Virus record (IMG/VR): IMGVR_UViG_3300007734_000708
Coordinates: 1 to 47,927 of that record
Source: a virus
Direction: 5' to 3' (one strand)
DNA length: 47,927 nucleotides
Part shown: piece by piece, positions 26,873 through 45,445 of the stretch
How the letters are laid out: each line of letters begins with the position of its first letter
Position numbering within the stretch: the first letter of the stretch is position 1
Program-made: the position numbers and the translations under genes
Notes under the pieces: generated by a model
Databases searched by the model: none
What the model was told of the DNA's origin: nothing
Seen by the model: the letters and a program-made list of their open reading frames with translations, nothing else

Positions 26873-26901
26873 TAAATGTACATTAGTGAGTTTTGGAAGC
26901 C
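26873..26901 (-). promoter_or_regulatory. 29-nt promoter-like element (copy 1)
   Basis: GGCTTCCAAAACTC ... TACATTTA, 29 nt, directly after the terminator of the 184-aa gene and 21 bases before the ATG of the 140-aa gene. Terminator then promoter is the arrangement expected of a true promoter. Confidence 0.65.
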
Positions 26902-26909
26902 TACCGAAT

Positions 26910-26933
26910 AAAAAAGGCCGCTTTGTGGCGGCC
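26910..26933 (-). terminator. rho-independent terminator
   Basis: On the coding strand a GGCCGC / GCGGCC stem (6 bp, loop CACAAA) is followed by six T residues. It lies 33 bases after the stop of the 184-aa gene and directly before promoter-like copy 1. Confidence 0.88.
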
Positions 26934-26965
26934 CTGTTATGTTTTGTTAAATTTATTATTTAATG

Positions 26966-27520
26966 TTATTCACCATAACCACCTGAGCCGATACTTCTAT
27001 CACCTGCTTTTGTTGCTGCTGATATAATTTCTCCGAATTGAGGAACTTTTAATGTATCAGTCACATATGCCTGGGTTAATGCAATTTCTTTTCCTTTTTC
27101 ATCTTTAAATTTTGAACCTAATTTATAATTTTTTATATTACCATATCCTACAGCAAGGCCAAGATTTGCTAAACCTTGAATAAGTTTTTTCTTCTTTTTT
27201 TCTCCATCTTCTTCATCTTTTAAATTAGATAAAGCAATTTCTTTTTGTTTATCATCATATTTTTGTCCATAAAATCTATACAATTCTTTTGCTAACGCTT
27301 CATCATTTGGAAATAGTTTGGTTATTTCCGCAGGATCTCCTTTTTTACTACTACTAAAAAAATCTTTAATTCCTTCTTCTAATTCTACTTCAGTTAATTC
27401 CGCTTCAGCAATAATTTCCATTATTTTTTCTTTAGCTTCTTTTTTCTTTTTCTTTTTAGCTTCAGCTAATTCGTTTTGTATTTCTTCGCGAATAAGGGTG
27501 CGTAAGTCGTTTATTTTCAT
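26966..27520 (-). CDS. Lys/Glu-rich protein with N-terminal LRTLIREEI tag
   Basis: 184 aa. The start (MKINDLRTLIREEIQNELAE) is an amphipathic helix shared with two other proteins in the window. A highly charged Lys/Glu/Ala region follows (residues 20-50, predicted coiled coil) and another Lys run near residue 110. The last ~60 residues are more globular (GLANLGLAVGYGNIKNYKLG) and end in a Gly/Ser tail. It is monocistronic, with a strong terminator after it. Such tagged proteins could be packaged or scaffold-type virion proteins; this is inference. Confidence 0.65.
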   Translation of the reverse strand: MKINDLRTLIREEIQNELAEAKKKKKKEAKEKIMEIIAEAELTEVELEEGIKDFFSSSKKGDPAEITKLFPNDEALAKELYRFYGQKYDDKQKEIALSNLKDEEDGEKKKKKLIQGLANLGLAVGYGNIKNYKLGSKFKDEKGKEIALTQAYVTDTLKVPQFGEIISAATKAGDRSIGSGGYGE

Positions 27521-27560
27521 TTTTATAATATATTAAATGTTTTGTTATACATATGTTAAA

Positions 27561-27583
27561 AATATAAAAAGTGTAGGCTCTTT
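27561..27583. repeat. imperfect 23-bp inverted repeat, left arm
   Basis: It pairs with 27911-27933 in inverted orientation (about 20 of 23 positions; core AGTGTAGGCTCTTT versus AGTGTAGGTTCTTT). The arms flank the gene at 27595-27882. Confidence 0.6.
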
Positions 27584-27594
27584 AACGGGTTATT

Positions 27595-27882: not shown

Positions 27883-27910
27883 TTTTATTTTTCCTTTCGT
27901 TTTTTATGTC

Positions 27911-27933: not shown

Positions 27934-27937
27934 CGGG

Positions 27938-28099: not shown

Positions 28100-28108
28100 A
28101 TAACTGCT

Positions 28109-29120: not shown

Positions 29121-29222
29121 TAGTCAGGACAGGATTCGAACCTGTAATTGTATTACGATTTTCATTGTTGCTGTAATACACCCGTTTATAGAGTCGCGTC
29201 TAACCAATTCCGCCACCTGACT
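29121..29222 (-). tRNA. tRNA-like element B, Leu-type with very long variable arm
   Basis: 102 nt. The acceptor AGTCAGG/CCTGACT, D-arm GCG-GAATTGGTTAGA-CGC and T-arm ACAGG-TTCGAAT-CCTGT are canonical and Leu-like. The anticodon stem is only 4 bp (ACTC/GGGT). Its 7-nt loop TATAAAC has TAA (Leu) in the middle, but the universal U33 is A. The variable arm is unusually long: GTATTAC/GTAATAC with a 16-nt loop. It may be a divergent tRNA-Leu or a tRNA-like RNA. Confidence 0.6.
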
Positions 29223-29988: not shown

Positions 29989-30017
29989 TAAATATAATAA
30001 CGAGAGTTTTGGAAGCC
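29989..30017 (-). promoter_or_regulatory. 29-nt promoter-like element (copy 2)
   Basis: GGCTTCCAAAACTC ... TATATTTA, exactly 29 nt, 45 bases upstream of the two-helix membrane-protein gene. Confidence 0.6.
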
Positions 30018-30293
30018 AAGTTAGATATATAAGGATATACTTTATCGACATACACAAAATCGGTTTTCTGGGTGATTGCATTAGTTTGGATTTCTGGGTA
30101 AATTGGTTAGTTGGGAATTGTGGGTGCGAGGTGGGGTGGTTGTGGCAAGAGATATAAGTATATATGAGTCGGGGTGGGTATATCGACCTTTATCTAAAAA
30201 TTAATCCAAGCCCTTTTCCCGCACGCCCCACGCATATATGGAAATCAACGCACGTGGTCCATAGGTACAACCTACGGCATACGGGCATATATA
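30018..30293. other. 276-base region with unusual composition, little coding evidence
   Basis: Plus-strand G/T-rich tracts (about 30100-30180) and a more G+C-rich stretch to 30290. On the coding strand a 32-aa ORF (MPVCRRLYLWTTCVDFHICV...) starts near 30286 right after the 35-aa peptide gene, but its composition is unconvincing. No repeat or RNA family recognised. Confidence 0.3.
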
Positions 30294-30401
30294 TCACGCA
30301 CCCCCTACAGTCCCAAATACTACATTCAACACTAGGAACCCTAATAATGCAGCCCAAATCTGCACCTTTTCGTTGTTTATTATTTTGCTAATCATTTTCA
30401 T
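30294..30401 (-). CDS. 35-aa membrane peptide
   Basis: MKMISKIINNEKVQIWAALL followed by GFLVLNVVFGTVGGA: a basic/polar N-terminus and one transmembrane helix. The ATG is 6 bases after the TACATTTA box of promoter-like copy 3, so the mRNA would be nearly leaderless. The first 30 bases are duplicated after promoter copy 4, where an extra A creates MKMI-stop. Confidence 0.5.
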   Translation of the reverse strand: MKMISKIINNEKVQIWAALLGFLVLNVVFGTVGGA

Positions 30402-30407
30402 ATACCA

Positions 30408-30436
30408 TAAATGTACGACACTGTTTTTTGCAAGCC
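30408..30436 (-). promoter_or_regulatory. 29-nt promoter-like element (copy 3)
   Basis: GGCTTGCAAAAAAC ... TACATTTA, 29 nt, right before the 35-aa membrane peptide gene. The surrounding 5' region is duplicated at copy 4. Confidence 0.55.
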
Positions 30437-30459
30437 CAATAGGGCAACACTTACCTTCC

Positions 30460-30693
30460 CTAGACACCAGATGATCTTAGTATGGCCTGGTCCATATCAT
30501 AGGCGCTGAAGCCATCTTCATTTGGTTGATGGTATTCATCCATCTTCCTGTTAATGTAGGCAAATAATAATTCAGCATATGCCTTAGGTAATTGGTCAAT
30601 GGCATCCACTAGTTTAGTGTAGCGGATCTGCTGGTGTCTATCTCCTAATGGGCAGGTCATTATGCTCACTATTTCCTGAGCCATGTTAAACAT
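30460..30693 (-). CDS. small uncharacterised protein
   Basis: 77 aa, MFNMAQEIVSIMTCPLGDRH at the start, helical and acidic at the end (GFSAYDMDQAILRSSGV). A start at the MAQE methionine is also possible. It lies downstream of promoter copy 4 with a ~55-base leader that begins with a duplicated, stop-interrupted ORF start (MKMI-stop). Its G+C content is higher than in the tail genes. Confidence 0.5.
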   Translation of the reverse strand: MFNMAQEIVSIMTCPLGDRHQQIRYTKLVDAIDQLPKAYAELLFAYINRKMDEYHQPNEDGFSAYDMDQAILRSSGV

Positions 30694-30747
30694 TTCAACT
30701 GCATTAGTTGGTGTGTTTATTATTTTGCTATATCATTTTCATATACC

Positions 30748-31398
30748 CTAAATATACGATGACAATTCACGGGAGCCAAGCAGAGCCAACTCCAATTGCC
30801 TACCTGGCCAGGTGTGACTACCTAACTTACCTGTACGGTGATCCATTCTCTCATCCACCCTACAGTACCACCGCTCCAAATTATATCGGGCTACATCATT
30901 CAGATCAGCCAACATCCCATATTTGGTGTCCACATACTCATATGCCTCACTGTAGGGCATCCTGTTGATGAGCGCCTCTCCCAGTACCCGAGCAAACAAC
31001 TGGTTCGATTCATCCACCGTCTGCTGCGGTGAAGATACTCCACATGCGGCGGATTCCCCTACCTCACTCACAAACATACCCGTATACAGTCCCCTCAGTC
31101 CATGTCGCTCAACAAATCTGTCTGCGTTACACCAGATATAAATGCCCGGTTTATTGCGGAGTAGACTCACATGCCGCTCTCCAATGGTTGTTCCACCGTG
31201 GCCCATCTGAGCCACATTAAACAGACCGTATGGGGATCCATGCCCCAGCATAATAATCTGGTCGTGGGATTCGATTGCCTCTATGAGCTGCCCCTCACTA
31301 ACCGCATCAGTGAGGACGGTCTTGGTGTCGATGCCCGAGTAAATAGGACGGAGGAAATCCGTGCTACGGTCATCTGGGTGAATTACTAGTGTTGTCAT
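30748..31398 (-). CDS. caspase-like (clan CD-type) His-Cys protein
   Basis: 216 aa. After an N-terminal alpha/beta half (MTTLVIHPDDRSTDFLRPIY) it has DQIIMLGHGSPYGLF with H53, then GIYIWCNADRFVERHG with C90. A hydrophobic strand ending in HG followed ~35 residues later by a strand ending in Cys is the arrangement of the caspase/gingipain fold. I associate the IWCNA block with a family of uncharacterised bacterial and phage proteins. Protease activity is inferred, not shown. The gene is clearly richer in G+C than the tail genes, which suggests recent acquisition. It starts one base after the stop of a MTPQEKA-type gene. Confidence 0.55.
   Translation of the reverse strand: MTTLVIHPDDRSTDFLRPIYSGIDTKTVLTDAVSEGQLIEAIESHDQIIMLGHGSPYGLFNVAQMGHGGTTIGERHVSLLRNKPGIYIWCNADRFVERHGLRGLYTGMFVSEVGESAACGVSSPQQTVDESNQLFARVLGEALINRMPYSEAYEYVDTKYGMLADLNDVARYNLERWYCRVDERMDHRTGKLGSHTWPGRQLELALLGSRELSSYI
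30749..30777 (-). promoter_or_regulatory. 29-nt promoter-like element (copy 4)
   Basis: GGCTCCCGTGAATT ... TATATTTA, 29 nt, overlapping the last codons of the caspase-like gene and reading into the 77-aa gene. The left half is the most divergent of the set. Confidence 0.5.
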
Positions 31399-31399
31399 A

Positions 31400-31642
31400 T
31401 TATAGTTTTTCTATTTCTTGTTTAACATCTTCCCAATAAGAATAGTAATAGGTTTTATCCCAATCAGTTTCAATGTATGCCCCATGTTTGAGATTGGTTT
31501 TGTATATTTCATCTACTGCCGTTGTAGCGCATGCTTTAGCAACGGTTATGGCTCCAAGTCCTGCTGTTTCCATACCACTGTGTTTAGAAGTGAGTTTAAG
31601 AAATTTATTTACAAGTTCAACTGCTTTTTCTTGTGGTGTCAT
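31400..31642 (-). CDS. MTPQEKA-family small protein (isolated copy)
   Basis: 80 aa. MTPQEKAVELVNKFLKLTSK at the start, a central ACATTAVDEI segment and YYYSYWEDVKQEIEKL at the end. It is clearly the same family as the four tandem genes at 46846-47706, about 15 kb away. The ends are conserved and the middle varies. It heads a pair with the caspase-like gene (one-base gap) and follows promoter copy 5. Function unknown; widespread in Bacteroidota phages as far as I recall. Confidence 0.7.
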   Translation of the reverse strand: MTPQEKAVELVNKFLKLTSKHSGMETAGLGAITVAKACATTAVDEIYKTNLKHGAYIETDWDKTYYYSYWEDVKQEIEKL

Positions 31643-31661
31643 GTGTGTTTATTTTATATTG

Positions 31662-31690
31662 TAAATATACATTAAATAATTTTAAAAGCC
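31662..31690 (-). promoter_or_regulatory. 29-nt promoter-like element (copy 5)
   Basis: GGCTTTTAAAATTA ... TATATTTA, 29 nt, 19 bases upstream of the MTPQEKA-type gene at 31400-31642. Confidence 0.6.
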
Positions 31691-31696
31691 AAGGAT

Positions 31697-31921
31697 TTAT
31701 TCATCCTCATCTTCAACCGGAGCAAACATCCGTCTGCCAGTGTCCATAAAATTGTCGTATGCTTCTGCCCCCATTGATTGTCTGAGTGTGGCTTTAAGCT
31801 CGTTCAATTGTTTTACTTTAGGTAATGCGTCTACAAATTTACCTGCTTCGATTAGTTCTTTAATTTCCCAGTTGGTGTCTAACACCTGTCTGAAGATTGC
31901 TGATTGTTCGTTTGTCATCAT
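31697..31921 (-). CDS. small acidic helical protein
   Basis: 74 aa from ATGATGACA (MMTNEQSAIFRQVLDTNWEI). A start further upstream would translate the promoter box itself and is rejected. Helical, with KVKQLNELKATLRQSMGAEA in the middle and an acidic end (PVEDEDE). The ATG lies only four bases after the TACATTTA box of copy 6, so the message should be almost leaderless. No family recognised. Confidence 0.55.
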   Translation of the reverse strand: MMTNEQSAIFRQVLDTNWEIKELIEAGKFVDALPKVKQLNELKATLRQSMGAEAYDNFMDTGRRMFAPVEDEDE

Positions 31922-31925
31922 ACTG

Positions 31926-31954
31926 TAAATGTACAATGTTTAATCTCGGGAGCC
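31926..31954 (-). promoter_or_regulatory. 29-nt promoter-like element (copy 6)
   Basis: GGCTCCCGAGATTA ... TACATTTA, 29 nt. It overlaps the 3' end of the 42-aa basic peptide gene (whose stop TAA lies inside it) and ends 4 bases before the ATG of the next gene. Confidence 0.55.
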
Positions 31955-32068
31955 ACGTTTTTTGCGGCTATATATTTTACCACTTGGCTTGGTCCGGGTG
32001 ATCATCTTCCGTCTGATGATCTGGGCAACATGCCTCTTGGATAAACCGTTTATTTTGCTCTTGCCCAT
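31940..32068 (-). CDS. 42-aa Arg/Lys-rich peptide
   Basis: MGKSKINGLSKRHVAQIIRR followed by KMITRTKPSGKIYSRKKRGSRD. About one third of residues are Lys/Arg, as in ribosomal-type or DNA-binding peptides. Preceded by a perfect 9-bp hairpin (32084-32103) in the leader. Its last codons overlap promoter copy 6. Function unknown. Confidence 0.5.
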   Translation of the reverse strand: MGKSKINGLSKRHVAQIIRRKMITRTKPSGKIYSRKKRGSRD

Positions 32069-32083
32069 GGTGATATAGAGGTA

Positions 32084-32103
32084 GCCGGGTGTAGACACCC
32101 GGC
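32084..32103. other. perfect 9-bp hairpin in leader of basic peptide gene
   Basis: GCCGGGTGT / ACACCCGGC with only two bases between arms. It is very G+C-rich against its surroundings. No T run follows on the coding strand; on the plus strand CGTTTTT follows after 7 bases. It lies 16 bases before the ATG of the 42-aa gene, so it may control translation or RNA stability, or act as a plus-strand terminator. Confidence 0.45.
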
Positions 32104-32119
32104 CGATCCTCGTTTTTGG

Positions 32120-32260
32120 TTATGATGACACTCCATTATTATGCTCTAGGAGGATAAGCTGGGCGATCTCCTCTTCCACCCAGTCATTCCCATCTAAATC
32201 TATCAGGTGCCCCACATAGTAGAGACCGTCGTGGACCAATAAATCATTTAATGATACCAT
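32120..32260 (-). CDS. 46-aa acidic protein
   Basis: MVSLNDLLVHDGLYYVGHLI then DLDGNDWVEEEIAQLILLEH. The stop is just upstream of the hairpin leader, and the start is one base from the stop of the 56-aa gene, so it is likely in the same transcript from promoter copy 7. No family recognised. Confidence 0.5.
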   Translation of the reverse strand: MVSLNDLLVHDGLYYVGHLIDLDGNDWVEEEIAQLILLEHNNGVSS

Positions 32261-32261
32261 A

Positions 32262-32432
32262 TTATTTTTTGTCTTTAACAATTTGGATGTATTTTGCTAA
32301 TAATTCCTCGTACATCGGGAAATTAACATCCTTCAATCGGACCAACAAGCCGATCACTTCTTGCGGGGTTTTGGTGCCATTTTGGATCCCCATTATTCCA
32401 CCTCTGATTTTTTTAATTAATATTTCGCTCAT
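32262..32432 (-). CDS. 56-aa basic protein
   Basis: Start MSEILIKKIRGGIMGIQNGT chosen because it follows the conserved leader AATAAAGGTTATG; the longer frame upstream runs through promoter copy 7. Helical, KTPQEVIGLLVRLKDVNFPM in the middle, Lys-rich end. Function unknown. Confidence 0.6.
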   Translation of the reverse strand: MSEILIKKIRGGIMGIQNGTKTPQEVIGLLVRLKDVNFPMYEELLAKYIQIVKDKK

Positions 32433-32450
32433 AACCTTTATTTTATACTG

Positions 32451-32479
32451 TAAATATACGTTAATTATCTTGGGAAGCC
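32451..32479 (-). promoter_or_regulatory. 29-nt promoter-like element (copy 7)
   Basis: GGCTTCCCAAGATA ... TATATTTA, 29 nt. The first G is the last base of the TAG stop of the 67-aa gene. It is followed by the AATAAAGGTTATG leader. Confidence 0.65.
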
Positions 32480-32682
32480 TAATACTCGAAATAAAAGTTT
32501 TTAATATCCCATCTACCTGTAGGTCCTTTGGTTTCAACCTGGTAGTCACCATCATATCCTCGGTTTGAGACAGGTACAAGCCATACTCGTGTATCACCAT
32601 CATCAATTTTTAGTTCAGCTCCGTCCCAAGATTGTTCAATAGTGTCTAGATTTTGCAATTCGCGTTTTGTGTATTTATACAT
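32479..32682 (-). CDS. 67-aa phage protein
   Basis: MYKYTKRELQNLDTIEQSWD then TRVWLVPVSNRGYDGDYQVE and a C-terminal WDIKNFYFEY. Likely a small beta-rich domain. Leader AATAAAGGTTATG and promoter copy 8 lie upstream; the stop is shared with promoter copy 7. I recall similar proteins in other phages, without function. Confidence 0.6.
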   Translation of the reverse strand: MYKYTKRELQNLDTIEQSWDGAELKIDDGDTRVWLVPVSNRGYDGDYQVETKGPTGRWDIKNFYFEY

Positions 32683-32700
32683 AACCTTTATTTTATACTG

Positions 32701-32729
32701 TAAATATAATAAAAGGAGCCTGGCAAGCC
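32701..32729 (-). promoter_or_regulatory. 29-nt promoter-like element (copy 8), fused to a terminator hairpin
   Basis: GGCTTGCCAGGCTC ... TATATTTA, 29 nt. On the coding strand GGAGC ... GCTCC TTTT forms a small terminator-like hairpin around the left half, so the end of the AT-hook transcript and the start of the next one share sequence. Confidence 0.55.
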
Positions 32730-32738
32730 AAGCTCCTT
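32710..32738 (-). terminator. possible terminator overlapping promoter copy 8
   Basis: On the coding strand GGAGC (32734-32738) pairs with GCTCC (32714-32718), followed by TTTTATT. The stem is short and the loop has 15 bases, with possible extra GGC/GCC pairing inside. It lies 15 bases after the stop of the AT-hook gene. Confidence 0.45.
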
Positions 32739-32752
32739 ACAAATCACGATTA

Positions 32753-33037
32753 TTATTTAGCCGCTTTAGCCATCTTTTGCTGGCGCTGGCTATCAGGATT
32801 TGACGGGCGACCTTTGCGGAGTGTACCTGCTGCACGCTTCTCAGCCATTGCTTTGAGGCGGATTTGACGGGCAGATCCTTCTGTCACGGGGCGACCTTTA
32901 TGGAGTAAACCAGCTGCACGCTTTTGAGCTTGAGCTGCCATTCGCGTCTGACGAGCACTGTTTGGGTTTGACGGACGACCACGTTTTGCAGTTTCAGCTA
33001 CTGCTGGAGCTTCGGTTTTTGCTGTTTTCTTTGACAT
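32753..33037 (-). CDS. AT-hook DNA-binding protein with three 28-aa repeats
   Basis: 94 aa, very basic and Ala-rich. Three GRP-centred AT-hook cores (RGRP at 19-22, KGRP at 47-50, KGRP at 75-78) are spaced exactly 28 residues apart, each followed by an SxRQ-type helix (NSARQTRMAAQAQKRAAG; GSARQIRLKAMAEKRAAG). AT-hooks bind the minor groove of AT-rich DNA. Such a protein could coat or bend the AT-rich phage genome, or act as a histone-like regulator in infection. Leader AAAATAAAAGTTATG and promoter copy 9 lie upstream. Confidence 0.75.
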   Translation of the reverse strand: MSKKTAKTEAPAVAETAKRGRPSNPNSARQTRMAAQAQKRAAGLLHKGRPVTEGSARQIRLKAMAEKRAAGTLRKGRPSNPDSQRQQKMAKAAK

Positions 33038-33068
33038 AACTTTTATTTTTGTTTGTTTATTTATACTA

Positions 33069-33097
33069 TAAATGTACGGTGTTTTGTTTTGAAAGCC
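33069..33097 (-). promoter_or_regulatory. 29-nt promoter-like element (copy 9)
   Basis: GGCTTTCAAAACAA ... TACATTTA, 29 nt, 31 bases before the AT-hook gene. Confidence 0.65.
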
Positions 33098-33100
33098 AAG

Positions 33101-33316
33101 TTAGAACGGTAATTCTTGCTCGGAATCGTCACTTATTTCATCTGCACTGTAGTGGGATTCTTCGTCCTCGCCCATGGGCGTGGAGGTGAAATGGTCGACT
33201 GGCTGGACCTTACCCTGGATCACTTCCTCCAACGCCTCGGGTAATGAGCCGGCCTCTACCTCATACACCCAATATTGAGTTACCTGTCGTTCTTCTGTTA
33301 TTTTATATTTTTTCAT
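33101..33316 (-). CDS. 71-aa acidic phage protein
   Basis: MKKYKITEERQVTQYWVYEV then EAGSLPEALEEVIQGKVQPV and a strongly acidic tail (DEISDDSEQELPF). The N-terminal pattern (beta-strand, 'AgsleEAle' helix) resembles small alpha/beta domains common in phage and plasmid proteins. Five bases after the stop of the secreted protein gene upstream; co-transcribed from promoter copy 10. Confidence 0.55.
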   Translation of the reverse strand: MKKYKITEERQVTQYWVYEVEAGSLPEALEEVIQGKVQPVDHFTSTPMGEDEESHYSADEISDDSEQELPF

Positions 33317-33321
33317 ATGTT

Positions 33322-33651
33322 TTAGTTTTTTAATCCAACTTTATTGTAATAAATGTACTTTCTGTTTTCATCAAACCTAACCATTGTAACGTTATATATA
33401 ATATAATTCATTACCTGCATTTCACCTTCTTTTGGTGGATTATCCATTTCGGCTTTACGCATGGCGTCTGCAATGGATTCGTCATCATTATACCCCACAC
33501 CCCAGTACCATTTGTAGGTTGAATCCGGGATCTTGTCCTTGAATATTTGGAGTTGGTCTGAGTCTCGCATTTGAAGCTCGTCTAAACCTATTTGGGCTTG
33601 TAAAACACACATCCCAAATACCATTATTACTGTTGTTATTATCCGTTTCAT
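33322..33651 (-). CDS. secreted phage protein (signal peptide)
   Basis: 109 aa. MKRIITTVIMVFGMCVLQAQ is a Sec signal peptide with probable cleavage after QAQ. The mature ~90 residues contain a charged helix and beta segments (YKWYWGVGYNDDESIADAMR; MNYIIYNVTMVRFDENRKYI). It is followed and preceded by other small genes from promoters 10 and 11. The leader resembles that of the next gene upstream, so the pair may be duplicated. A periplasmic role in host takeover is inference. Confidence 0.65.
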   Translation of the reverse strand: MKRIITTVIMVFGMCVLQAQIGLDELQMRDSDQLQIFKDKIPDSTYKWYWGVGYNDDESIADAMRKAEMDNPPKEGEMQVMNYIIYNVTMVRFDENRKYIYYNKVGLKN

Positions 33652-33657
33652 ATGCTT

Positions 33658-33686
33658 TAAATTTACAATATTTTATTCTGGCAGCC
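33658..33686 (-). promoter_or_regulatory. 29-nt promoter-like element (copy 10)
   Basis: GGCTGCCAGAATAA ... TAAATTTA, 29 nt. The ATG of the secreted-protein gene follows 6 bases after the right box. It overlaps the 3' end of the upstream gene. Confidence 0.5.
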
Positions 33687-34086
33687 TACCTTCGGACGGT
33701 TCTCTGCGGCCCCACATTTTAAACCTACAATAGCCCGTGGGCGTAAATTCAACAACCCAATGCACAATTTTTGTGCTATGATATCTTACACCATCATATC
33801 TGTTGGGGAAATTAAACGTAACCCACATATCCAATTCGTCCACAGCCACTTCAATTTGCTTCCAAGTGCTTAATACCATAGCACCTCTTGCGGCTAAGGT
33901 GTCATTGTTTACTATTAATATTGAATCTACTACCATCACCATTGCCCTGTCTCCCCAATTTGGGATCCGGGCATAATCTGAATCTGTCATTAGTGAATCT
34001 GGTGTCTTGTAGATGTCTTTTGGGATCCACTGGGCCTGCCCTTGCACCCCAGCCACCACCATTATTGCCACTAATATCCGTTTCAT
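33673..34086 (-). CDS. secreted phage protein (signal peptide)
   Basis: 137 aa. MKRILVAIMVVAGVQGQAQ is a signal peptide ending in QAQ, like the adjacent secreted gene. The mature part has aromatic beta-like segments (AMVLSTWKQIEVAVDELDMW; YHSTKIVHWVVEFTPTGYCR) and an Arg-rich end. It starts five bases after the 27-aa peptide gene. The pair of secreted proteins has no recognised family. Confidence 0.65.
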   Translation of the reverse strand: MKRILVAIMVVAGVQGQAQWIPKDIYKTPDSLMTDSDYARIPNWGDRAMVMVVDSILIVNNDTLAARGAMVLSTWKQIEVAVDELDMWVTFNFPNRYDGVRYHSTKIVHWVVEFTPTGYCRFKMWGRREPSEGRLPE

Positions 34087-34220: not shown

Positions 34221-34249
34221 TAAATGTACGTAACGTGGTTTGGGAAGCC
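34221..34249 (-). promoter_or_regulatory. 29-nt promoter-like element (copy 11)
   Basis: GGCTTCCCAAACCA ... TACATTTA, 29 nt. Its first G belongs to the TAG stop of the 67-aa gene upstream; it drives the 27-aa gene and the secreted protein behind it. Confidence 0.65.
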
Positions 34250-34452
34250 TACTGAAACAATGATTCTTTAATTAGCACCAACATTGCAATTTCCTTGTCC
34301 TCTTCTTCCATTGCGTCTTGGTAGGTTCCTGCATTGTCCCAATCTTCTTTAGTTATGGCTTGCAAAAAAAGCAAGTTTAACTCAATTTTTATTTGAAGAC
34401 TTTTTATCAATCTGTCTTCTATTTGTCTTTGATATTCGGATTTTACTGTCAT
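34249..34452 (-). CDS. 67-aa helical protein
   Basis: Start MTVKSEYQRQIEDRLIKSLQ chosen at the conserved AATAAAGGTTATG leader; the longer open frame covers the promoter and non-coding DNA. Helical with coiled-coil tendency; acidic DAMEEEDKEIAMLVLIKE near the end. Function unknown. Confidence 0.6.
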   Translation of the reverse strand: MTVKSEYQRQIEDRLIKSLQIKIELNLLFLQAITKEDWDNAGTYQDAMEEEDKEIAMLVLIKESLFQ

Positions 34453-34467
34453 AACCTTTATTTTGCC

Positions 34468-34496
34468 TAAATTTACACACACCTGTTTTGGAAGCC
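34468..34496 (-). promoter_or_regulatory. 29-nt promoter-like element (copy 12)
   Basis: GGCTTCCAAAACAG ... TAAATTTA, 29 nt, followed by the AATAAAGGTTATG leader of the 67-aa gene. Confidence 0.65.
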
Positions 34497-34653
34497 ACGC
34501 AAGGTTTGCGGTTTTTTGTATATACTTTGTCGAGTAAAAGTGAGGTGGGCTTTCGGAGAAAAAGGGTTGGATTTTCAGAACACAACACAACCACACACTA
34601 ACACCCATTTACCACATACTATACATCCACCACCATTCCTGTCACGTTACATT
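34497..34653. other. 157-base non-coding region, G/T-rich on the coding strand
   Basis: No ORF. The coding strand has a long G/T-biased stretch (about 34575-34635, with many TGG, TGT and GGT triplets). At 34498-34517 the plus strand has CGCAA-GGT-TTGCG then TTTTTT, which looks like a small rho-independent terminator pointing against the genes. No known element recognised. Confidence 0.35.
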
Positions 34654-35394: not shown

Positions 35395-35423
35395 TAAATA
35401 TACGTTGAATTATTTTGGAAGCC
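35395..35423 (-). promoter_or_regulatory. 29-nt promoter-like element (copy 13)
   Basis: GGCTTCCAAAATAA ... TATATTTA, 29 nt. The TAG stop of the 62-aa gene overlaps its first G. Confidence 0.65.
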
Positions 35424-35611
35424 TACTGTTCGTCTATAATTCGAGTTGTAAACTTTAAGATGAATTCTTTGATATCAACATCATCAAATCCTGCTTTTCT
35501 TAAAGTACCTACCATATCACTAATGGATTGATATAAGTTACCATCTTGCTTCATTTTGGTATACAAATGTATATCAGATACACACGGAGATGTTTTGTTT
35601 GTTGTTGTCAT
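35423..35611 (-). CDS. 62-aa phage protein
   Basis: MTTTNKTSPCVSDIHLYTKM then SDMVGTLRKAGFDDVDIKEF. It has conserved leader AATAAAGGTTATG, promoter copy 14 upstream and a stop overlapping copy 13, so it is a monocistronic unit. Function unknown. Confidence 0.55.
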   Translation of the reverse strand: MTTTNKTSPCVSDIHLYTKMKQDGNLYQSISDMVGTLRKAGFDDVDIKEFILKFTTRIIDEQ

Positions 35612-35630: not shown

Positions 35631-35659
35631 TAAATGTACGTTGAACTGTTTTGGAAGCC
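35631..35659 (-). promoter_or_regulatory. 29-nt promoter-like element (copy 14)
   Basis: GGCTTCCAAAACAG ... TACATTTA, 29 nt. The stop of the upstream 67-aa gene overlaps it; AATAAAGGTTATG follows. Confidence 0.65.
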
Positions 35660-35883: not shown

Positions 35884-35912
35884 TAAATATATAATTGAAA
35901 GTTTTGGAAGCC
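35884..35912 (-). promoter_or_regulatory. 29-nt promoter-like element (copy 15)
   Basis: GGCTTCCAAAACTT ... TATATTTA, 29 nt. The TAG stop of the 26-aa peptide gene overlaps its start. Confidence 0.65.
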
Positions 35913-36207: not shown

Positions 36208-36236
36208 TAAATGTACGTTACGCGGTTTTGGAAGCC
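36208..36236 (-). promoter_or_regulatory. 29-nt promoter-like element (copy 16)
   Basis: GGCTTCCAAAACCG ... TACATTTA, 29 nt, ending 4 bases before the lipoprotein ATG. It overlaps the 3' end of the SWIM-protein gene. Confidence 0.65.
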
Positions 36237-36670: not shown

Positions 36671-36699
36671 TAAATGTACGATGTTGAGTCTTGGAAGCC
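36671..36699 (-). promoter_or_regulatory. 29-nt promoter-like element (copy 17)
   Basis: GGCTTCCAAGACTC ... TACATTTA, 29 nt, with the TAG stop of the 89-aa gene overlapping the first G. Confidence 0.65.
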
Positions 36700-36968
36700 T
36701 AGTATTTGTTGATTATTGCTTTAATTACTTCAATGTCTTCGTTTGACATTTGTAAACGTGAATTTGAAAGTTTAAAAGTTATTTCATTCCATTCTTCATC
36801 AAAATGGTTGGATACGATAGGTAGTGCCATTGGTTTTCTAAAGCGTTTGTCTTTATGAATTTCTTCAATTAATTCTTCAAGTTCATCTTCATCGCAAGCT
36901 CGAACAAACTCTTTTGGAGATATGTCCATTTCTGCTTCTACTTCTACGTATTCTTCAAATGTTGGCAT
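36699..36968 (-). CDS. 89-aa acidic phage protein
   Basis: MPTFEEYVEVEAEMDISPKE then ACDEDELEELIEEIHKDKRF, very acidic in the first 55 residues. The second half (FDEEWNEITFKLSNSRLQMS) ends with VIKAIINKY. It lies after the 48-aa membrane peptide gene and the ATPase gene and is probably transcribed with them from promoter copy 18. Function unknown. Confidence 0.6.
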   Translation of the reverse strand: MPTFEEYVEVEAEMDISPKEFVRACDEDELEELIEEIHKDKRFRKPMALPIVSNHFDEEWNEITFKLSNSRLQMSNEDIEVIKAIINKY

Positions 36969-36980
36969 ATGTTTTGGTTT

Positions 36981-37127
36981 TTAGTTGTTAAAAATATCTT
37001 TTAATTGAAATATAACTACAAGCGCCCATGGCAATGCAGCGGCGTAATTGTGTGTAACGTATAAGTGGTTAGCGGCGCAAACTATTGAGCCGAATAATCC
37101 TAACCAAAGGAGTGTTCTGTATTTCAT
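36981..37127 (-). CDS. 48-aa membrane peptide
   Basis: MKYRTLLWLGLFGSIVCAAN, then HLYVTHNYAAALPWALVVIF and QLKDIFNN: two hydrophobic segments. It overlaps the ATPase stop by 4 bases (ATGA), the usual coupling in this genome. Too small for family recognition. Confidence 0.6.
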   Translation of the reverse strand: MKYRTLLWLGLFGSIVCAANHLYVTHNYAAALPWALVVIFQLKDIFNN

Positions 37128-37939
37128 TCTTCTTCTTCTTTATTTGGTTCTATATTTGAATATATAATACTACTACCTGTTAATTGGTAAGCCAACCTAA
37201 CAGCAACATTTCCGTTTCTATTTTTAGAAAACTCTATGTATGTACCACCACCGTCTTTATCTGATTCGCGTCGCATTTCAGCCATTGCATCAACCATGTG
37301 CTTTAGTTTGTTGCTACCTACGAATACTCCTGCTTTGGTTACTTGTTGAATCAACATGAATGTAGTGAATTTGTTTAGGTCGTTTTCACCTTTGTTGTTT
37401 TGAACACAAATGTCTACTAACCATGATTCTGCTGTTTTTCTGTCCCAATTGTTGTCGTCACGAACACCTTCAATTATTTCAGCAGCTGAGTCTATTAGTA
37501 CTAAGTCCCATCCTAATTTGAATACTTGTTCAATTACATCTTTGGTGTTGTGGTTTGTATAGTCTGATACAAACATGGTTTGTATAGTTCCGAACTGAGG
37601 AAAACGTTGAGTGTATTTAAACATCTGTTTTTTACCCATTTCGCCTGATATAAATAAACACCTACGTTCTTTGTTTTTAATTTGAACTGATGCCATTAAA
37701 TCAAGCAATACAGTAGTTTTACCTACACCTGGATCGCCTATAACCATGATGTTGGTAGCGCTAGGTATACCTCCTTCATGACTAATAAGTTTGTCAATTG
37801 TTAAACCACTTTCCATTTGATCCATCATTCGTGAATCAATGTCTAATTGGCTTAGTTTTGTGATTTGACTAAAGTCAATTTGAACACGTGTTGGCTGTGT
37901 TGCAATTGGGTTTAATCTTGGACGACCTCGTTTTTTCAT
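37124..37939 (-). CDS. RecA/RadA-type ATPase with N-terminal AT-hook
   Basis: 271 aa. An AT-hook-like KKRGRPRLN opens the protein. Walker A GDPGVGKTT is at 68-76, followed by LFISGEMGKKQMFKY (95-109; RadA/DnaB-like 'sgEM' motif) and Walker B WDLVLIDS ending at D150. The 'GeEm..q' and FMLIQQVTKAG elements resemble RadA/DnaB-type RecA cores. Likely roles are recombination/repair or helicase-loading in phage DNA metabolism. It lacks a separate zinc finger or Lon-like domain, so it is not full-length RadA. Transcribed from promoter copy 18. Confidence 0.8.
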   Translation of the reverse strand: MKKRGRPRLNPIATQPTRVQIDFSQITKLSQLDIDSRMMDQMESGLTIDKLISHEGGIPSATNIMVIGDPGVGKTTVLLDLMASVQIKNKERRCLFISGEMGKKQMFKYTQRFPQFGTIQTMFVSDYTNHNTKDVIEQVFKLGWDLVLIDSAAEIIEGVRDDNNWDRKTAESWLVDICVQNNKGENDLNKFTTFMLIQQVTKAGVFVGSNKLKHMVDAMAEMRRESDKDGGGTYIEFSKNRNGNVAVRLAYQLTGSSIIYSNIEPNKEEEE

Positions 37940-37963: not shown

Positions 37964-37992
37964 TAAATGTACATCCAATGGCTTTGGAAGCC
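37964..37992 (-). promoter_or_regulatory. 29-nt promoter-like element (copy 18)
   Basis: GGCTTCCAAAGCCA ... TACATTTA, 29 nt, between tRNA-like element C and the ATPase gene. The leader reads AAAAAAACGGTTATG. Confidence 0.65.
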
Positions 37993-38000
37993 TAGTTTTG

Positions 38001-38093
38001 TAGTCAGGACAGGATTTGAACCTGTAAATGGATTTATTTGTCATATTAGTCCAACCCACTCGTGGCTGCGTCTACCAATTCCGCCACCTGACT
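38001..38093 (-). tRNA. tRNA-like element C, Leu-type with abnormal anticodon loop
   Basis: 93 nt. Acceptor AGTCAGG/CCTGACT and T-arm ACAGG-TTCAAAT-CCTGT are nearly identical to element B, and the D-arm (GCG-GAATTGGTAGA-CGC) is Leu-like. The best anticodon stem is AGCC/GGTT with loop ACGAGTG, which centres GAG (Leu) but has C at position 33 and T at 37. The same bases can form a tight CCAC-GA-GTGG hairpin. The variable region is long. Decoding ability is doubtful. Confidence 0.58.
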
Positions 38094-38097
38094 ATTT

Positions 38098-38325
38098 TTA
38101 ATCTTTATAAGCTCTACACCATTTTGGTAATGATTTTTGATATTCTTCAAAGTTTTGTTTCCATACAATATGACCACAATCATAACATCGAATACCTGAA
38201 TCTCCAGTTGCTTGTTGACATAACTCGTTCCATCCTCTTCTCCAAATTCCATCAGTAAGGTTTTTTGATTTACATTTTGTACAACGTTTTTTAAAAATAA
38301 AATTTGTTATAAATAAAGTTTTCAT
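38098..38325 (-). CDS. zinc-ribbon protein
   Basis: 75 aa. Two CxxC knuckles (RCTKCKSKNL and IRCYDCGHIV) about 30 residues apart form a typical zinc ribbon. A basic Trp-rich stretch follows (KQNFEEYQKSLPKWCRAYK). The stop is 5 bases from the 5' end of tRNA-like element C. Likely a nucleic-acid-binding accessory protein. The alternative frames covering the tRNA region are shadows. Confidence 0.68.
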   Translation of the reverse strand: MKTLFITNFIFKKRCTKCKSKNLTDGIWRRGWNELCQQATGDSGIRCYDCGHIVWKQNFEEYQKSLPKWCRAYKD

Positions 38326-38572: not shown

Positions 38573-38601
38573 TAAATGTACATCCAATGGCTTTGAAAGC
38601 C
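38573..38601 (-). promoter_or_regulatory. 29-nt promoter-like element (copy 19)
   Basis: GGCTTTCAAAGCCA ... TACATTTA, 29 nt, immediately downstream of tRNA-like element D. Confidence 0.65.
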
Positions 38602-38612
38602 TAGTTCTTTAG

Positions 38613-38711
38613 TAGTCGAGGTAGGACTTGCACCTACACGCATTGTTATGCAACTGAACAGTTGTGTCTTCTATCGGAATGGATATCCATTCTCGCTTCC
38701 ACCACCCGACT
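38613..38711 (-). tRNA. tRNA-like element D, strongly aberrant
   Basis: 99 nt. Acceptor AGTCGGG/CTCGACT and T-stem GTAGG/CCTAC pair well, but the T-loop is TGCAAGT instead of TTCRANN. Instead of normal D and anticodon arms there are three tight hairpins: the perfect palindrome GAATGGATATCCATTC, CAACTG-TT-CAGTTG, and GCAT-AACA-ATGC. No 7-nt anticodon loop can be drawn. It may be a tRNA-like RNA or a decayed tRNA; it is less likely to decode. Confidence 0.42.
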
Positions 38712-38718
38712 TTAAGTA

Positions 38719-39525
38719 TTACGCAGGGCAATACTCTGTAGCTAACTCATATAGTTTCGAATTCAAAGCCATATCTTGATTGAAGTTTTTTATCTTACGT
38801 GCTTTACGTTCTTTAACTCCAAATTTATAGTTAAAATTCCCACCAATGATTCGCTCCTGTACTCGATTAAACACACTCCATAAACTATTTCCTGTGTCTT
38901 CGGCTCGTACCGGTTGTGTAAATTCATTGAAATCAATTTTTATACGTTTGATTTCATCTGCACCAAACCTAATTTCAAGTGCTTTTTTAGCAAACGATTT
39001 GATTTGGTTTTCGGTCAGTTGAGTTTGTTTGAATTTATTCATTGATTCAACTGTAAGTGGTAGTTTTTCTACCATTTTCGAAATTGTTTTCTGTAATTCA
39101 GAAAAGTCATATCCAAAGTGTCTGATTTTTAGGTCAGCAAAGTCTTGTGTTGATATGACTAATCCATTTTCACATACCAAACGGAATATACCTGCTTTAA
39201 ATGTAAATGAATTTTTCCCATCACTACTGTTTGTAAGTAGGATTTGTGGGAATACTGTATCTCCGTCTTTACCTTCAATTACTAAGTCACTATGTCGAAA
39301 TACAACTAAGTGTTTTTGATAACCTGCACCTTTACGTGCTTTGACTTCTTTAGCATCAACTACATTCCATCCTAGTTTACTCATGTCTTCAATTACCTTA
39401 AAGGTAGGAATGTGTGAGTACTTTTCTGAGGTTGTTTCTGATCCTTTTTTAGCAAATATACTATTTGCTTTTGCTTTGATTTCTTCCATTGAAAGAAATT
39501 CTGTGTTTGAGAGGTTTAACGGCAT
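38719..39525 (-). CDS. DUF932-like phage protein
   Basis: 268 aa. Signature segments are YQKHLVVFRHSDLVI, FPQILLTNSSDGKNSFTFKA and GIFRLVCENGLVIS (about residues 70-130), followed by LWSVFNRVQERIIGG near 215-230. These match the DUF932/phage-plasmid-like family ('...R.S.D.S.a.......GvfR.VC.NGL'). Members are common in large phages and plasmids; the molecular function is unresolved. It sits between DNA ligase and tRNA-like element D, driven by promoter copy 20. Confidence 0.78.
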   Translation of the reverse strand: MPLNLSNTEFLSMEEIKAKANSIFAKKGSETTSEKYSHIPTFKVIEDMSKLGWNVVDAKEVKARKGAGYQKHLVVFRHSDLVIEGKDGDTVFPQILLTNSSDGKNSFTFKAGIFRLVCENGLVISTQDFADLKIRHFGYDFSELQKTISKMVEKLPLTVESMNKFKQTQLTENQIKSFAKKALEIRFGADEIKRIKIDFNEFTQPVRAEDTGNSLWSVFNRVQERIIGGNFNYKFGVKERKARKIKNFNQDMALNSKLYELATEYCPA

Positions 39526-39549: not shown

Positions 39550-39578
39550 TAAATGTACGACAAGTATCCTTGGAAGCC
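39550..39578 (-). promoter_or_regulatory. 29-nt promoter-like element (copy 20)
   Basis: GGCTTCCAAGGATA ... TACATTTA, 29 nt, 24 bases before the DUF932-like gene. Confidence 0.65.
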
Positions 39579-40682: not shown

Positions 40683-40711
40683 TAAAGGTAAGGTAAATTG
40701 TTTTGAAAGCC
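40683..40711 (-). promoter_or_regulatory. 29-nt promoter-like element (copy 21)
   Basis: GGCTTTCAAAACAA ... TACCTTTA, 29 nt, directly before the ligase ATG; overlaps the last base of the stop of the 61-aa gene. Confidence 0.6.
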
Positions 40712-40896
40712 TAATTTTTAGTAGGCAAACGAAAGATGTTTTTCTGTCTATCTGTGTGGCCGTTGTTATAATCATCTATACGTTGAGCGAGTTCCATTTG
40801 TTTGGCTACTTCAAGTAAATCTTTAGAAATAATAGGAGTACCTTCAAACGTTAACATTGAATTAAGCCACTCTACTGCTGTTTGTTTATTTTCCAT
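40711..40896 (-). CDS. TAVEWL-family small protein, last of series
   Basis: 61 aa from MENKQTAVEWLNSMLTFEGT, the same opening as the genes at 41386 and 42719. The longer frame upstream starts inside the preceding gene and is rejected. Its first 11 bases (ATGGAAAATAA) also encode the end (YGK-stop) of the upstream paralogue. The C-terminus diverges (HTDRQKNIFRLPTKN). Function unknown; family common in Bacteroidota phages as far as I recall. Confidence 0.65.
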   Translation of the reverse strand: MENKQTAVEWLNSMLTFEGTPIISKDLLEVAKQMELAQRIDDYNNGHTDRQKNIFRLPTKN

Positions 40897-41089
40897 AAGT
40901 TTCATTGTAGTATTGTTCTTTAGGTGTTCCTTTGAAAGCCATTGAATCCCATTTCCCTTTATCAAAAGCATCTTCTATCTGTTGCTTTTCCATTTCTAAA
41001 TACTTTTTACAATGTTCCTCATTGAATATTGACATATCAATATTTCTTAAATCATATATTAGTTGTTTAACTGCTGTCATATTAGTCAT
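40886..41089 (-). CDS. TAVEWL-family small protein
   Basis: 67 aa, MTNMTAVKQLIYDLRNIDMS at the start (the second Met, giving MTAVKQL, may be the true start), KYLEMEKQQIEDAFDKGKWD in the middle and EQYYNETYGK at the end. The middle and end match the paralogues at 41376-41570 and 42709-42936. The stop overlaps the next gene start by 11 bases. Confidence 0.65.
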   Translation of the reverse strand: MTNMTAVKQLIYDLRNIDMSIFNEEHCKKYLEMEKQQIEDAFDKGKWDSMAFKGTPKEQYYNETYGK

Positions 41090-43225: not shown

Positions 43226-43801
43226 TTAATATAAATCGTAATATTCTTTTATTTCATCTAACTGAGAAGGATCTACTACAAACGATTCCCAATCGTCCTT
43301 TGCTACTTCTACATCCCTAACATCAATGTAAAATGTTTTGGGTGTGAATGGAAATGATTTGATGTATCCTTTTTTACCTACCATCTTACTTCTGTCTCCT
43401 GTTTTATAATCTTCTTCAGACAGCCAAGCAAATCCACTCCAACAAGTTCCATTTTGATCTCGTTTTACGATTGCATCAATATAGTAAGGTCTTCCGTCTT
43501 TACCATCTTTGAATATAGCTGAGCATCTCTTGTTTTGATACCAAGAACCACCAACACCTAAGTCTCTTACATCACACCATTCTTCATCTTTACCTGTGAT
43601 GCCAATTAGTGGTTTGAAGTTTGCTACTTTTTCAAATACACTAATGACATATGGAGCTGACATTCCAGAGTGGCCTTGTTTGGCAAATACCTCTATAAGT
43701 TCCATTACTGCTTTACCAGTCATTCCATCATAGAAGTCTCCTTCTTTATCAAATAGTCCTGCTATTTGTAATTCTGTTTTTGCGTGTTCAATTAAGCTCA
43801 T
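43226..43801 (-). CDS. conserved phage protein of unknown function (191 aa)
   Basis: MSLIEHAKTELQIAGLFDKE, then HSGMSAPYVISVFEKVANFK, then SWYQNKRCSAIFKDGKDGRP. I associate the 'GHSG.Sa.y....l.kv..f.pl.pltG...eW' plus 'QNkRcs.vFkd' pattern with a widespread family in phages of very different hosts; no function is established to my knowledge. Conserved Cys and His residues are visible but no clear active site. It overlaps the next gene upstream by 4 bases. Confidence 0.7.
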   Translation of the reverse strand: MSLIEHAKTELQIAGLFDKEGDFYDGMTGKAVMELIEVFAKQGHSGMSAPYVISVFEKVANFKPLIGITGKDEEWCDVRDLGVGGSWYQNKRCSAIFKDGKDGRPYYIDAIVKRDQNGTCWSGFAWLSEEDYKTGDRSKMVGKKGYIKSFPFTPKTFYIDVRDVEVAKDDWESFVVDPSQLDEIKEYYDLY

Positions 43802-44379
43802 ACTGATTTTAAATAAATTTGATATAATTCTTCTTCTGTTTTGTATCCCATTTTAGAGTCTTCTAGTTGACATTCCCACATCCATTTGTCTGTAACCCAT
43901 ATTGACATCCAATCCGATTGGGCTAGCCACTTTGCAAAGTCAATACATGCTTCTTTTTCTAGTTCCTCTTCATATTCTTGTTGTTGTTCATAAGCACAAT
44001 GAGGACAGTCTTCCATTTTGCAAATAAATTCTTCCATAGTAGGACCTGATGTATAACCTTCCGCTTCTATTTCCTCTATTTGTTTTTCAAATTGTTCTGT
44101 AGTTATACTTTTTAGGTGGTCCTTTAATTTTTGAGTTAATGGTTTAAGTGTTTCGTCATACAATTTAGTTATTGAAGCATAACTTACGGTTTCTTGAGTA
44201 AGCGGATCGGTTATGTCTATCAATGTAAATTCAACCGCTTGTCCGTGTCTGTCATCTAATTTAATGTCTGATCTAAAGGCTAGTGCTCGAAGATCAAGAT
44301 AATAAAGTGGATAACCAAATGGTGCTTCAGAACTAGTTACAAACCATCCTAAATGAGTTAATGTTATTGTTCCAATCAT
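43798..44379 (-). CDS. uncharacterised 193-aa protein with CxxC
   Basis: MIGTITLTHLGWFVTSSEAP, with FICKMEDCPHCAYEQQQEYE near residues 118-137 (possible metal-binding CxxC) and Trp-rich AQSDWMSIWVTDKWMWECQL near the end. Overlaps both neighbours by 4 bases (ATGA type). Parts of the N-terminus are beta-rich. Function unknown. Confidence 0.62.
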   Translation of the reverse strand: MIGTITLTHLGWFVTSSEAPFGYPLYYLDLRALAFRSDIKLDDRHGQAVEFTLIDITDPLTQETVSYASITKLYDETLKPLTQKLKDHLKSITTEQFEKQIEEIEAEGYTSGPTMEEFICKMEDCPHCAYEQQQEYEEELEKEACIDFAKWLAQSDWMSIWVTDKWMWECQLEDSKMGYKTEEELYQIYLKSV

Positions 44380-44639
44380 ACAAAATAAGTGTAATCGGTG
44401 TATTGATATTCATTCCCTATCTTTTTACACATTCCATGCCCCATATATTTTGAGTAGAGGTAGGCTTCAGCATCCTGATATGTTTTGTGAGATATTCTTT
44501 TTGGTTTTATTTCAGTGTTGAAAATTTCTTTCCAACCAAGCCAAGTTTGTTTCTCAATAACATATTCTATTCGAGAACGTCCATTTTCCCATTTTAAATC
44601 ACTAACACAATGAGTGTATTCTACTATTCTAAATTTCAT
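44376..44639 (-). CDS. uncharacterised 87-aa protein
   Basis: MKFRIVEYTHCVSDLKWENG then YVIEKQTWLGWKEIFNTEIK, ending YTDYTYFV. A small beta-rich protein; the 'yvIEkqtwlGWk.if.....' segment resembles small phage proteins of unknown role. Overlaps both neighbours. Confidence 0.6.
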   Translation of the reverse strand: MKFRIVEYTHCVSDLKWENGRSRIEYVIEKQTWLGWKEIFNTEIKPKRISHKTYQDAEAYLYSKYMGHGMCKKIGNEYQYTDYTYFV

Positions 44640-44916
44640 AATTTATTTGGTCTTTAATTTTATTTTTCATCCATTCGATTGCTAATTCAGCACCTACAAT
44701 AACTCCATCATTGTATTGACCATCGTCAAGGTGTTTTGTATAAGGGAATGACTTCATATATTCATCTATCTCTTCATCTGTTGGTAGGACTATTGGTTGA
44801 AGTGCTTTCAAGTGTTTTTTAATTCTTTCATTAGCAACCTCCCCGCTAAACCAATCATTATAATCACGTATAGATTTGATAGTATTGAGTAATTGTTCTT
44901 CTGTGTATAGTTTCAT
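44629..44916 (-). CDS. MKLYT-family small protein
   Basis: 95 aa, MKLYTEEQLLNTIKSIRDYN at the start, LQPIVLPTDEEIDEYMKSFP in the middle and GAELAIEWMKNKIKDQINYE at the end. It matches the gene at 45131-45412 in all three parts, so the two are paralogues. Start context and 11-base overlap with the next gene fit the operon style. Function unknown. Confidence 0.66.
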   Translation of the reverse strand: MKLYTEEQLLNTIKSIRDYNDWFSGEVANERIKKHLKALQPIVLPTDEEIDEYMKSFPYTKHLDDGQYNDGVIVGAELAIEWMKNKIKDQINYEI

Positions 44917-45134
44917 AACAACCTCCCTTCTCCACTCTCATACCATTTGTCTACACTACCGTATTTAGCAATTTGTTTGTTGCTATTATCTTCTACTCTA
45001 CGGTATGCTTCTCTCCATTTCTGTTTAGTTTCTTCATCAGCATCTTTTGGATATGTGCCTGAATGAATTTGAAGTTGGTCAATCTCTTCATCCGTTAGAT
45101 GGAAGGGGTCTTTTGGTTTAAAGTTTATTTTCAT
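44913..45134 (-). CDS. 73-aa protein related to operon neighbours
   Basis: MKINFKPKDPFHLTDEEIDQ then KDADEETKQKWREAYRRVED, ending KWYESGEGRLL. The LTDEEIDQL segment resembles the central part of the MKLYT family, so it may share part of that module. 4-base overlaps on both sides. Confidence 0.58.
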   Translation of the reverse strand: MKINFKPKDPFHLTDEEIDQLQIHSGTYPKDADEETKQKWREAYRRVEDNSNKQIAKYGSVDKWYESGEGRLL

Positions 45135-45412
45135 TTGTTACCTCCTTGTATTTTATCTTTTATCCATTTAGCACCAGCTTTGAAGTACTTTCTTTGCCAA
45201 TTATCCTCACCATGTGATATGAAATTCTTATTTATAAATGCATCTATCTCCTCCTCACTTGGTAGTTCTATTGGGTTTCTATCTTTTAAAAATATATCTA
45301 CAAATTCTTTTGCTTCACGTTCATCGTGACCAAGTATACTATGAGATTCGTGTGTATAATTTTTTAATGATTCTACTAAATCGATTAAATCTTGTTTTGT
45401 ATATAATTTCAT
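45131..45412 (-). CDS. MKLYT-family small protein, first gene of operon
   Basis: 93 aa, MKLYTKQDLIDLVESLKNYT at the start, RNPIELPSEEEIDAFINKNF in the middle and KAGAKWIKDKIQGGNK at the end. Paralogue of 44629-44916. The ATG lies 4 bases after the right box of promoter copy 22, making it the first gene of the 45.4-40.7 kb operon. Confidence 0.66.
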   Translation of the reverse strand: MKLYTKQDLIDLVESLKNYTHESHSILGHDEREAKEFVDIFLKDRNPIELPSEEEIDAFINKNFISHGEDNWQRKYFKAGAKWIKDKIQGGNK

Positions 45413-45416
45413 ATTG

Positions 45417-45445
45417 TAAATGTAAGATATTTTTTTGAGGAAGCC
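45417..45445 (-). promoter_or_regulatory. 29-nt promoter-like element (copy 22)
   Basis: GGCTTCCTCAAAAA ... TACATTTA, 29 nt. It is the most upstream copy in this window and starts a long operon of at least 16 small genes without another copy until 40711. Confidence 0.65.

Follow-up and report, generated by a model that had tools for sequence, protein, structure and literature searches.

A repeated element at gene starts

The stretch of DNA considered here (the window) is IMG/VR virus record IMGVR_UViG_3300007734_000708, 47,927 bases long, with genes that lie nearly all on the minus strand. Homologues of T4-like myovirus proteins are encoded in it, among them baseplate wedge proteins and a phage ATP-dependent DNA ligase, and a baseplate protein shares 43% identity along its length with its counterpart in Flavobacterium phage vB_FspM_immuto (Immutovirus, MW353176; henceforth immuto), which has a cultured host and a 160 kb genome carrying gp20-, gp21- and gp23-type genes. 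Our subject is a promoter-like element repeated through what we term the early region of the window, for which no megablast relative was found in the phage collection.

A pattern search for GGCT[T/C/G]-N16-TAnnTTTA returned exactly 22 sites in the window, all on the minus strand between 26873 and 45445, and none on the plus strand. The left box reads GGCTT at 19 sites, GGCTC at two and GGCTG at one, while the right box conforms to TAHHTTTA at 22/22, with an invariant A at the position corresponding to -5. Simulation of the minus strand with an order-2 Markov model gave an expectation of 0.10 sites (maximum 1 in 300), on which we rejected a chance origin, and the other spacings (8-15 and 17-29) gave 0-2 matches each versus 22 at N16. 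When a 45-column matrix was scored by leave-one-out, all sites reached 25-50 bits, against 13.6 for the best simulated sequence and -1.6 for the best plus-strand site; the scan added a 23rd, degenerate copy, whose -7 box lacks one base (Table 1). Conservation exceeds 29 nucleotides (nt), running from T[A/T]GGCTTcCaAAaC on the left side to gTAyATTTAyAnTAtaaA on the right. The family consensus, TTTGG-N19-TAYATTTA, stays at background in 16 Mb of sequence from four Flavobacteriaceae genomes (7 matches vs 15 for the reversed control pattern), so a host element or mobile repeat was also rejected; the flanks and spacers, which differ between the 22 copies, likewise count against a mobile repeat.

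The sites are placed at gene starts. At 21 of the 22, the ATG of an open reading frame (ORF) of at least 30 amino acids (aa) begins 4-55 nt downstream, the exception being 34221, where the nearest ORF ATG lies 134 nt downstream; several sites overlap the 3' end of the preceding gene. No early-type element was found in the baseplate region of the window, and structural genes are without it. A preliminary description of this DNA had claimed coding-strand copies at constant spacing, at the starts of genes or small operons and absent from the baseplate operon, all of which is borne out. The matrix scan and host scan that it proposed set the 22 sites well apart from simulated sequence and found no scatter of the element in host DNA; its 29-nt element is a real motif, though part of a wider conserved stretch.

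The left box and the -33 element

In Flavobacterium johnsoniae, promoters consist of a -33 TTTG and a -7 TAHHTTTG at -12 to -5, with the start site 4-5 nt on (PMC6847099). We compared the element with this plan in relatives gathered two ways, by ligase and by pattern scan. In about 40 related phage loci and in immuto, the top spacing is a TTG exactly 20 nt from TAHHTTTA: it is present at 25/57 boxes of immuto 50-100 kb and at 19/43 and 17/33 boxes of two related loci (L168 and L159), where other spacings average about 0.6. The IMG/VR scan used GGCTTCC-N13-GTAYATTTA, leaving the bases to the left of GGCTTCC unconstrained, and a TTG nevertheless spans the left edge in 103 of 126 sites; 111 of these 126 precede an ORF, and 109 of 119 loci carry genes for proteins of this phage group. 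Lineage consensuses (TTTGG[C/T]T...TATATTTA; AGTTGC...TATATTTAGGTAT in immuto) all begin T(T)TG, and the extension after TTG varies by lineage (GCCTTCGGGCC, GTTACCC, CCTA...) while TTG-N20 stays constant. By its sequence, 'GGCTT' is thus best read as the 3' side of a -33 TTTG element at ordinary Bacteroidota spacing, joined to a lineage-specific extension.

This refutes the earlier view of the left box as unlike TTTG and nearer to the right box: it matches the -33 TTTG of the published F. johnsoniae consensus (PMC6847099). The triplet at the TTG position is TTG at only 8 of the 22 window sites and TAG at 11 (GTG at two, TGG at one), and because 11/22 sites read TAG the left box had been set too far right. 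The likening of the right box to the Bacteroidota -7 element holds, in that the TAHHTTT core is common to both, though A replaces G at -5. What remains of the preliminary interpretation is a promoter-like element of early or middle class with host RNA polymerase as its likely reader; the new left element at a shorter distance falls away.

The TAG form appears to have a second use. Six of the 11 TAGs double as the stop codon of a preceding ATG ORF of 62-119 aa; among all TAG triplets on the same strand and in the same region, the share that closes an ORF of 40 aa or more is 3%. If these small ORFs, which are putative genes, are expressed, the amber stop of the upstream gene and the promoter -33 share the same three bases at six sites.

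Hairpins bear on whether the left half might instead end the preceding unit as its intrinsic terminator. In several relatives the -33-to-spacer stretch folds into a hairpin and T-run resembling a terminator (-6 kcal/mol or lower), at 8/9 sites of L129, 6/7 of L134 and 11/36 of immuto. In the window, by contrast, such a hairpin occurs at 1/21 sites only (32701) and the mean energy equals that of shuffled sequence (-2.6 vs -2.5), which already contradicts a terminator there, and a terminator would leave the constant spacing from the -7 box unexplained. We find a terminator in place of a promoter element scarcely credible; it would be an additional function at most. The amber stop inside the -33 and, in relatives, the hairpins inside the spacer would make a single DNA stretch carry two signals.

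The conserved extension also recalls T4 middle promoters, TGCTTtA-N11-13-TATAAT, with the Mot box GCTT near -30 (PMC1524935) upstream of the sigma -10 element. A phage activator might accordingly bind GGCTTCCAAAAC and stand in for -33 contacts, in the way MotA does at those promoters: GGCTTCC is conserved above any host -33 element and includes the GCTT found at the core of the Mot box (PMC1524935). However, 13-15 nt separate GCTT from TATAAT in Mot-box promoters and the distance here is 16 in every copy, with a TTG just upstream, and it is the extension that varies between lineages while TTG-N20 stays. MotA (PF09114) and AsiA (PF09010) homologues were not found in seven relatives including immuto, with a positive T4 control, the window itself being a fragment. 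We regard such an activator as quite improbable.

The -7 box and the polymerase likely to read it

We conclude that the 22 elements are probably early-class promoters of a T4-like Flavobacteriia myovirus, whose reader would be the host RNA polymerase, with the primary sigma as its most likely partner. They share with Bacteroidota primary-sigma promoters (-33 TTTG / -7 TAnnTTTG; F. johnsoniae, PMC6847099; F. psychrophilum, PMC9723704) the TTG/TTTG, the TAHHTTT core and an A-rich leader, and the TTG-N20 of relatives and immuto falls within the host range of about 18-22 nt between -33 and -7 box. They differ in the A rather than a near-invariant G at -5, the rigid 20 nt, the GCTTCC extension and the TAG at 11/22 sites. 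T4 early promoters, which are of sigma-70 type with extra conserved bases, are a further parallel, being found in many copies before small early genes, on the same strand as the genes and with a consensus longer than that of the host; the difference is that the host promoter type here is that of Bacteroidota.

In the proposed mechanism, the last G of a -33 TTTG-type element would be the first G of 'GGCTT', 20 nt from the -7 box TAYATTTA, and transcription would be expected to start 4-5 nt past that box. Host RNA polymerase, most likely with the primary sigma, would read these sites at the onset of infection, and each would switch on a short run of small takeover genes, from one to several in number. 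The further conserved bases GCTTCCAAAAC would either strengthen binding directly, to which we lean, or contact an additional factor. The beta domain of multisubunit RNA polymerase (PF00562) was not found in seven relatives, with a positive control, and sense upstream DNA of immuto holds 41 TAHHTTTA vs 1 TAHHTTTG. Since immuto is without a clear TAHHTTTG promoter and the seven relatives without a beta domain, infection most likely starts with the host polymerase at TTTA promoters.

Several points weigh against this reading, above all a feature that the preliminary description had overlooked: as far as the sequences go, the A at -5 is invariant where flavobacterial promoters hold a near-invariant G. 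Sites of relatives with the upstream element comprise about 180 TTTA vs 2 TTTG, whereas hosts favour G, with TAHHTTTG 5.0-fold and TAHHTTTA 1.3-fold enriched upstream in sense vs antisense across about 1,100 Flavobacteriia genes; a smaller first host set gave 2.2-fold for TAHHTTTA, and all these ratios are rough because the host genes were called as mechanical ORFs. If an unaided primary sigma were the reader, G at -5 should therefore appear sometimes. Moreover, hosts show a weak -33 signal at a diffuse spacing (18-22), against the rigid one of the phage, and the sources searched yielded no transcript data for these phages. The A at -5 is the chief argument that another factor takes part, be it a modified host sigma or one encoded by the phage. 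A possible, if tentative, reading is that promoter specificity is switched by this one base: early units would use A at -5 and shun G, either because the host sigma is remodelled or because a phage sigma that makes -33 contacts of its own takes its place. If true, this would parallel, in Bacteroidota, the appropriation of sigma by T4, with a different base as the discriminator. The constant A in any case poses a testable question on promoter reading by the sigma of this phylum.

The open-licence literature searched gave no promoter maps for Bacteroidota phages and no account of promoter classes for the T4-like ones among them. What is new here is a set of putative early promoters that follow the known -33/-7 plan of Bacteroidota and depart from it consistently at one base. 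Their fixed geometry across many uncultured phages would offer a ready marker for early genes, and the elements are candidate strong promoters for Flavobacterium genetics.

Start positions lead to one further prediction. At four window sites (45417, 40683, 36208 and 31926) the ATG stands 4 nt after TTTA, and in about 20 relatives (L128-L149 and others) exactly 4 nt separate the -7 box from the ligase gene ATG. If transcription starts 4-5 nt past the box, leaderless mRNAs are predicted at these four sites and for the ligase gene of relatives; such mRNAs are a minority type in Flavobacterium, at 5.5% in F. psychrophilum (PMC9723704).

A late-type motif, a sigma-like protein and neighbouring features

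Immuto resembles the window in having the two putative promoter classes as well as the sigma-like and baseplate genes, and differs in its own left extension (AGTTGCcn...) and its own initial transcribed region GGTATCAATAATTAAAA. Its early-type sites cluster at 56-80 kb among small genes. The second motif, TATTTATAA, has no left box and lies upstream of genes, mostly structural, at 15 of its 17 occurrences in immuto; copies in the window are given in Table 1, and the genes behind two of them, at 13533 and 2940, are late-type. T4 late promoters consist of a lone TATAAATA read by gp55 (PMC1524935). By analogy, the late structural genes would use the -33-free TATTTATAA, probably read by a phage gp55-like sigma.

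A sigma region-2-like protein is encoded in the same genomes. The 18113-18820 product is probably a sigma factor, as judged from profiles and a predicted fold, and is a candidate late sigma that may be equivalent to gp55, although the late motif differs in sequence from that of T4, the protein has 235 aa vs 185, and sequence similarity is weak (E 0.017; profile comparison probability 3.9, E 0.011). It is 64% identical to a G002 protein showing sigma-70 region 2 and 47% identical to an immuto protein annotated as hypothetical. Most relatives have a region-2-like orthologue by Pfam, with a Sigma70_r2 score below cut-off, and the T4 gp55 profile (phrog_234) finds a sole, weak match per genome in seven relatives (9e-6 to 0.008). 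The structure model is of modest confidence (predicted local distance difference test, pLDDT, 67). Foldseek against the PDB placed mostly sigma factors in the top rows, none significant (E 0.2 or worse), and domain 2 of sigma factors aligned to model residues 1-105 (Z 7-8, root-mean-square deviation about 3 angstrom, 90-98 residues); a sequence profile search of the PDB found nothing. Its conserved C-terminal helical domain, modelled alone at pLDDT 86, gave weak helix-turn-helix-like matches, and sigma region 4 was not among the clear matches.

It is unlikely, in our judgement, that a phage sigma factor reads the early elements themselves. The wide occurrence of the region 2-like orthologue (in seven of seven relatives searched with PHROG), the fold matches over residues 1-105 and the conserved C-terminal domain would fit such a reader, as would an A at -5 that is near-invariant in phages and not in hosts. 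One relative, record G006 (171.7 kb), has a second, typical sigma with regions 2 and 4 (L213 1438-1980), but this was found in G006 only. Against a phage sigma, its gene would need prior expression and immuto is without an alternative host-type promoter; the expected place for a sigma of gp55 type is the late motif without a -33; and the C-terminal domain is without a clear region 4 match. Reading of the early elements by the host polymerase is preferred.

Table 1. Early-type sites, late-type motifs and the sigma-like gene of the window
Feature	Position	Strand	Remark
Early site 1	45417..45445	-	TTG form; ATG 4 nt after TTTA
Early site 2, DNA ligase	40683..40711	-	TAG is stop of ORF 40711-40971; ATG 4 nt after TTTA
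Early site 3, DUF932 gene 38719-39525	39550..39578	-	
Early site 4	38573..38601	-	Directly 3' of tRNA-like remnant
Early site 5, RecA/KaiC-like ATPase gene 37124-37939	37964..37992	-	Directly 3' of tRNA-like remnant
Early site 6	36671..36699	-	TAG is stop of ORF 36699-36968
Early site 7	36208..36236	-	ATG 4 nt after TTTA
Early site 8	35884..35912	-	Overlaps late-like string TATTTATAA
Early site 9	35631..35659	-	TAG is stop of ORF 35659-35862
Early site 10	35395..35423	-	TAG is stop of ORF 35423-35611
Early site 11	34468..34496	-	GTG form
Early site 12	34221..34249	-	TAG is stop of ORF 34249-34608; nearest downstream ORF ATG at 134 nt
Early site 13	33658..33686	-	GGCTG; ATG 6 nt after TTTA
Early site 14	33069..33097	-	
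Early site 15	32701..32729	-	Left half and spacer form terminator-like hairpin, -17.8 kcal/mol
Early site 16	32451..32479	-	TAG is stop of ORF 32479-32682
Early site 17	31926..31954	-	GGCTC, GTG form; ATG 4 nt after TTTA
Early site 18	31662..31690	-	
Early site 19	30749..30777	-	GGCTC; lies over 3' end of ORF 30748-31398
Early site 20	30408..30436	-	TGG form; ATG 6 nt after TTTA
Early site 21	29989..30017	-	
Early site 22	26873..26901	-	Directly 3' of terminator-like hairpin
Degenerate 23rd early copy	25152..25179	-	TAATTTA; upstream of gene 24620-25126; from position weight matrix scan
Late-type motif TATTTATAA	25138..25146	-	Adjoins degenerate early site
Late-type motif TATTTATAA	13533..13541	-	Upstream of gene 13179-13529
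Late-type motif TATTTATAA	2940..2948	-	Upstream of gene 2271-2924
Sigma-like protein, 235 aa	18113..18820	-	Sigma-70 region 2; weak T4 gp55 match; candidate late sigma

Takeover and anti-defence genes would lie in units started by early elements. An example is a gene in the run downstream of site 45417 that encodes a Tad3-type inhibitor of type I Thoeris defence (43226-43801, minus strand; Pfam PF25185, 1e-38). Most of the small early genes remain unnamed after comparison of the window proteins with PHROGs and Pfam.

Directly before sites 37964 and 38573 lie tRNA-like sequences (about 38000-38120 and 38610-38720, minus strand) that neither ARAGORN nor Rfam called and that are perhaps decayed tRNAs. 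The two promoters have the spacer CAAAGCCATTGGATGTACATTTATA in common, as if duplicated together with the tRNA-like sequences. A fourth tRNA, at 29121-29222 on the minus strand, was missed by ARAGORN and scored 38.5 bits with Rfam. Part of the early region (30000-34000) has a G+C content of 41-43% vs 33% overall. Outside it, a 1430-aa protein (20257-24549, minus strand) combines PKD domains with a CHU_C type IX secretion C-terminal domain, which is unusual in a phage.

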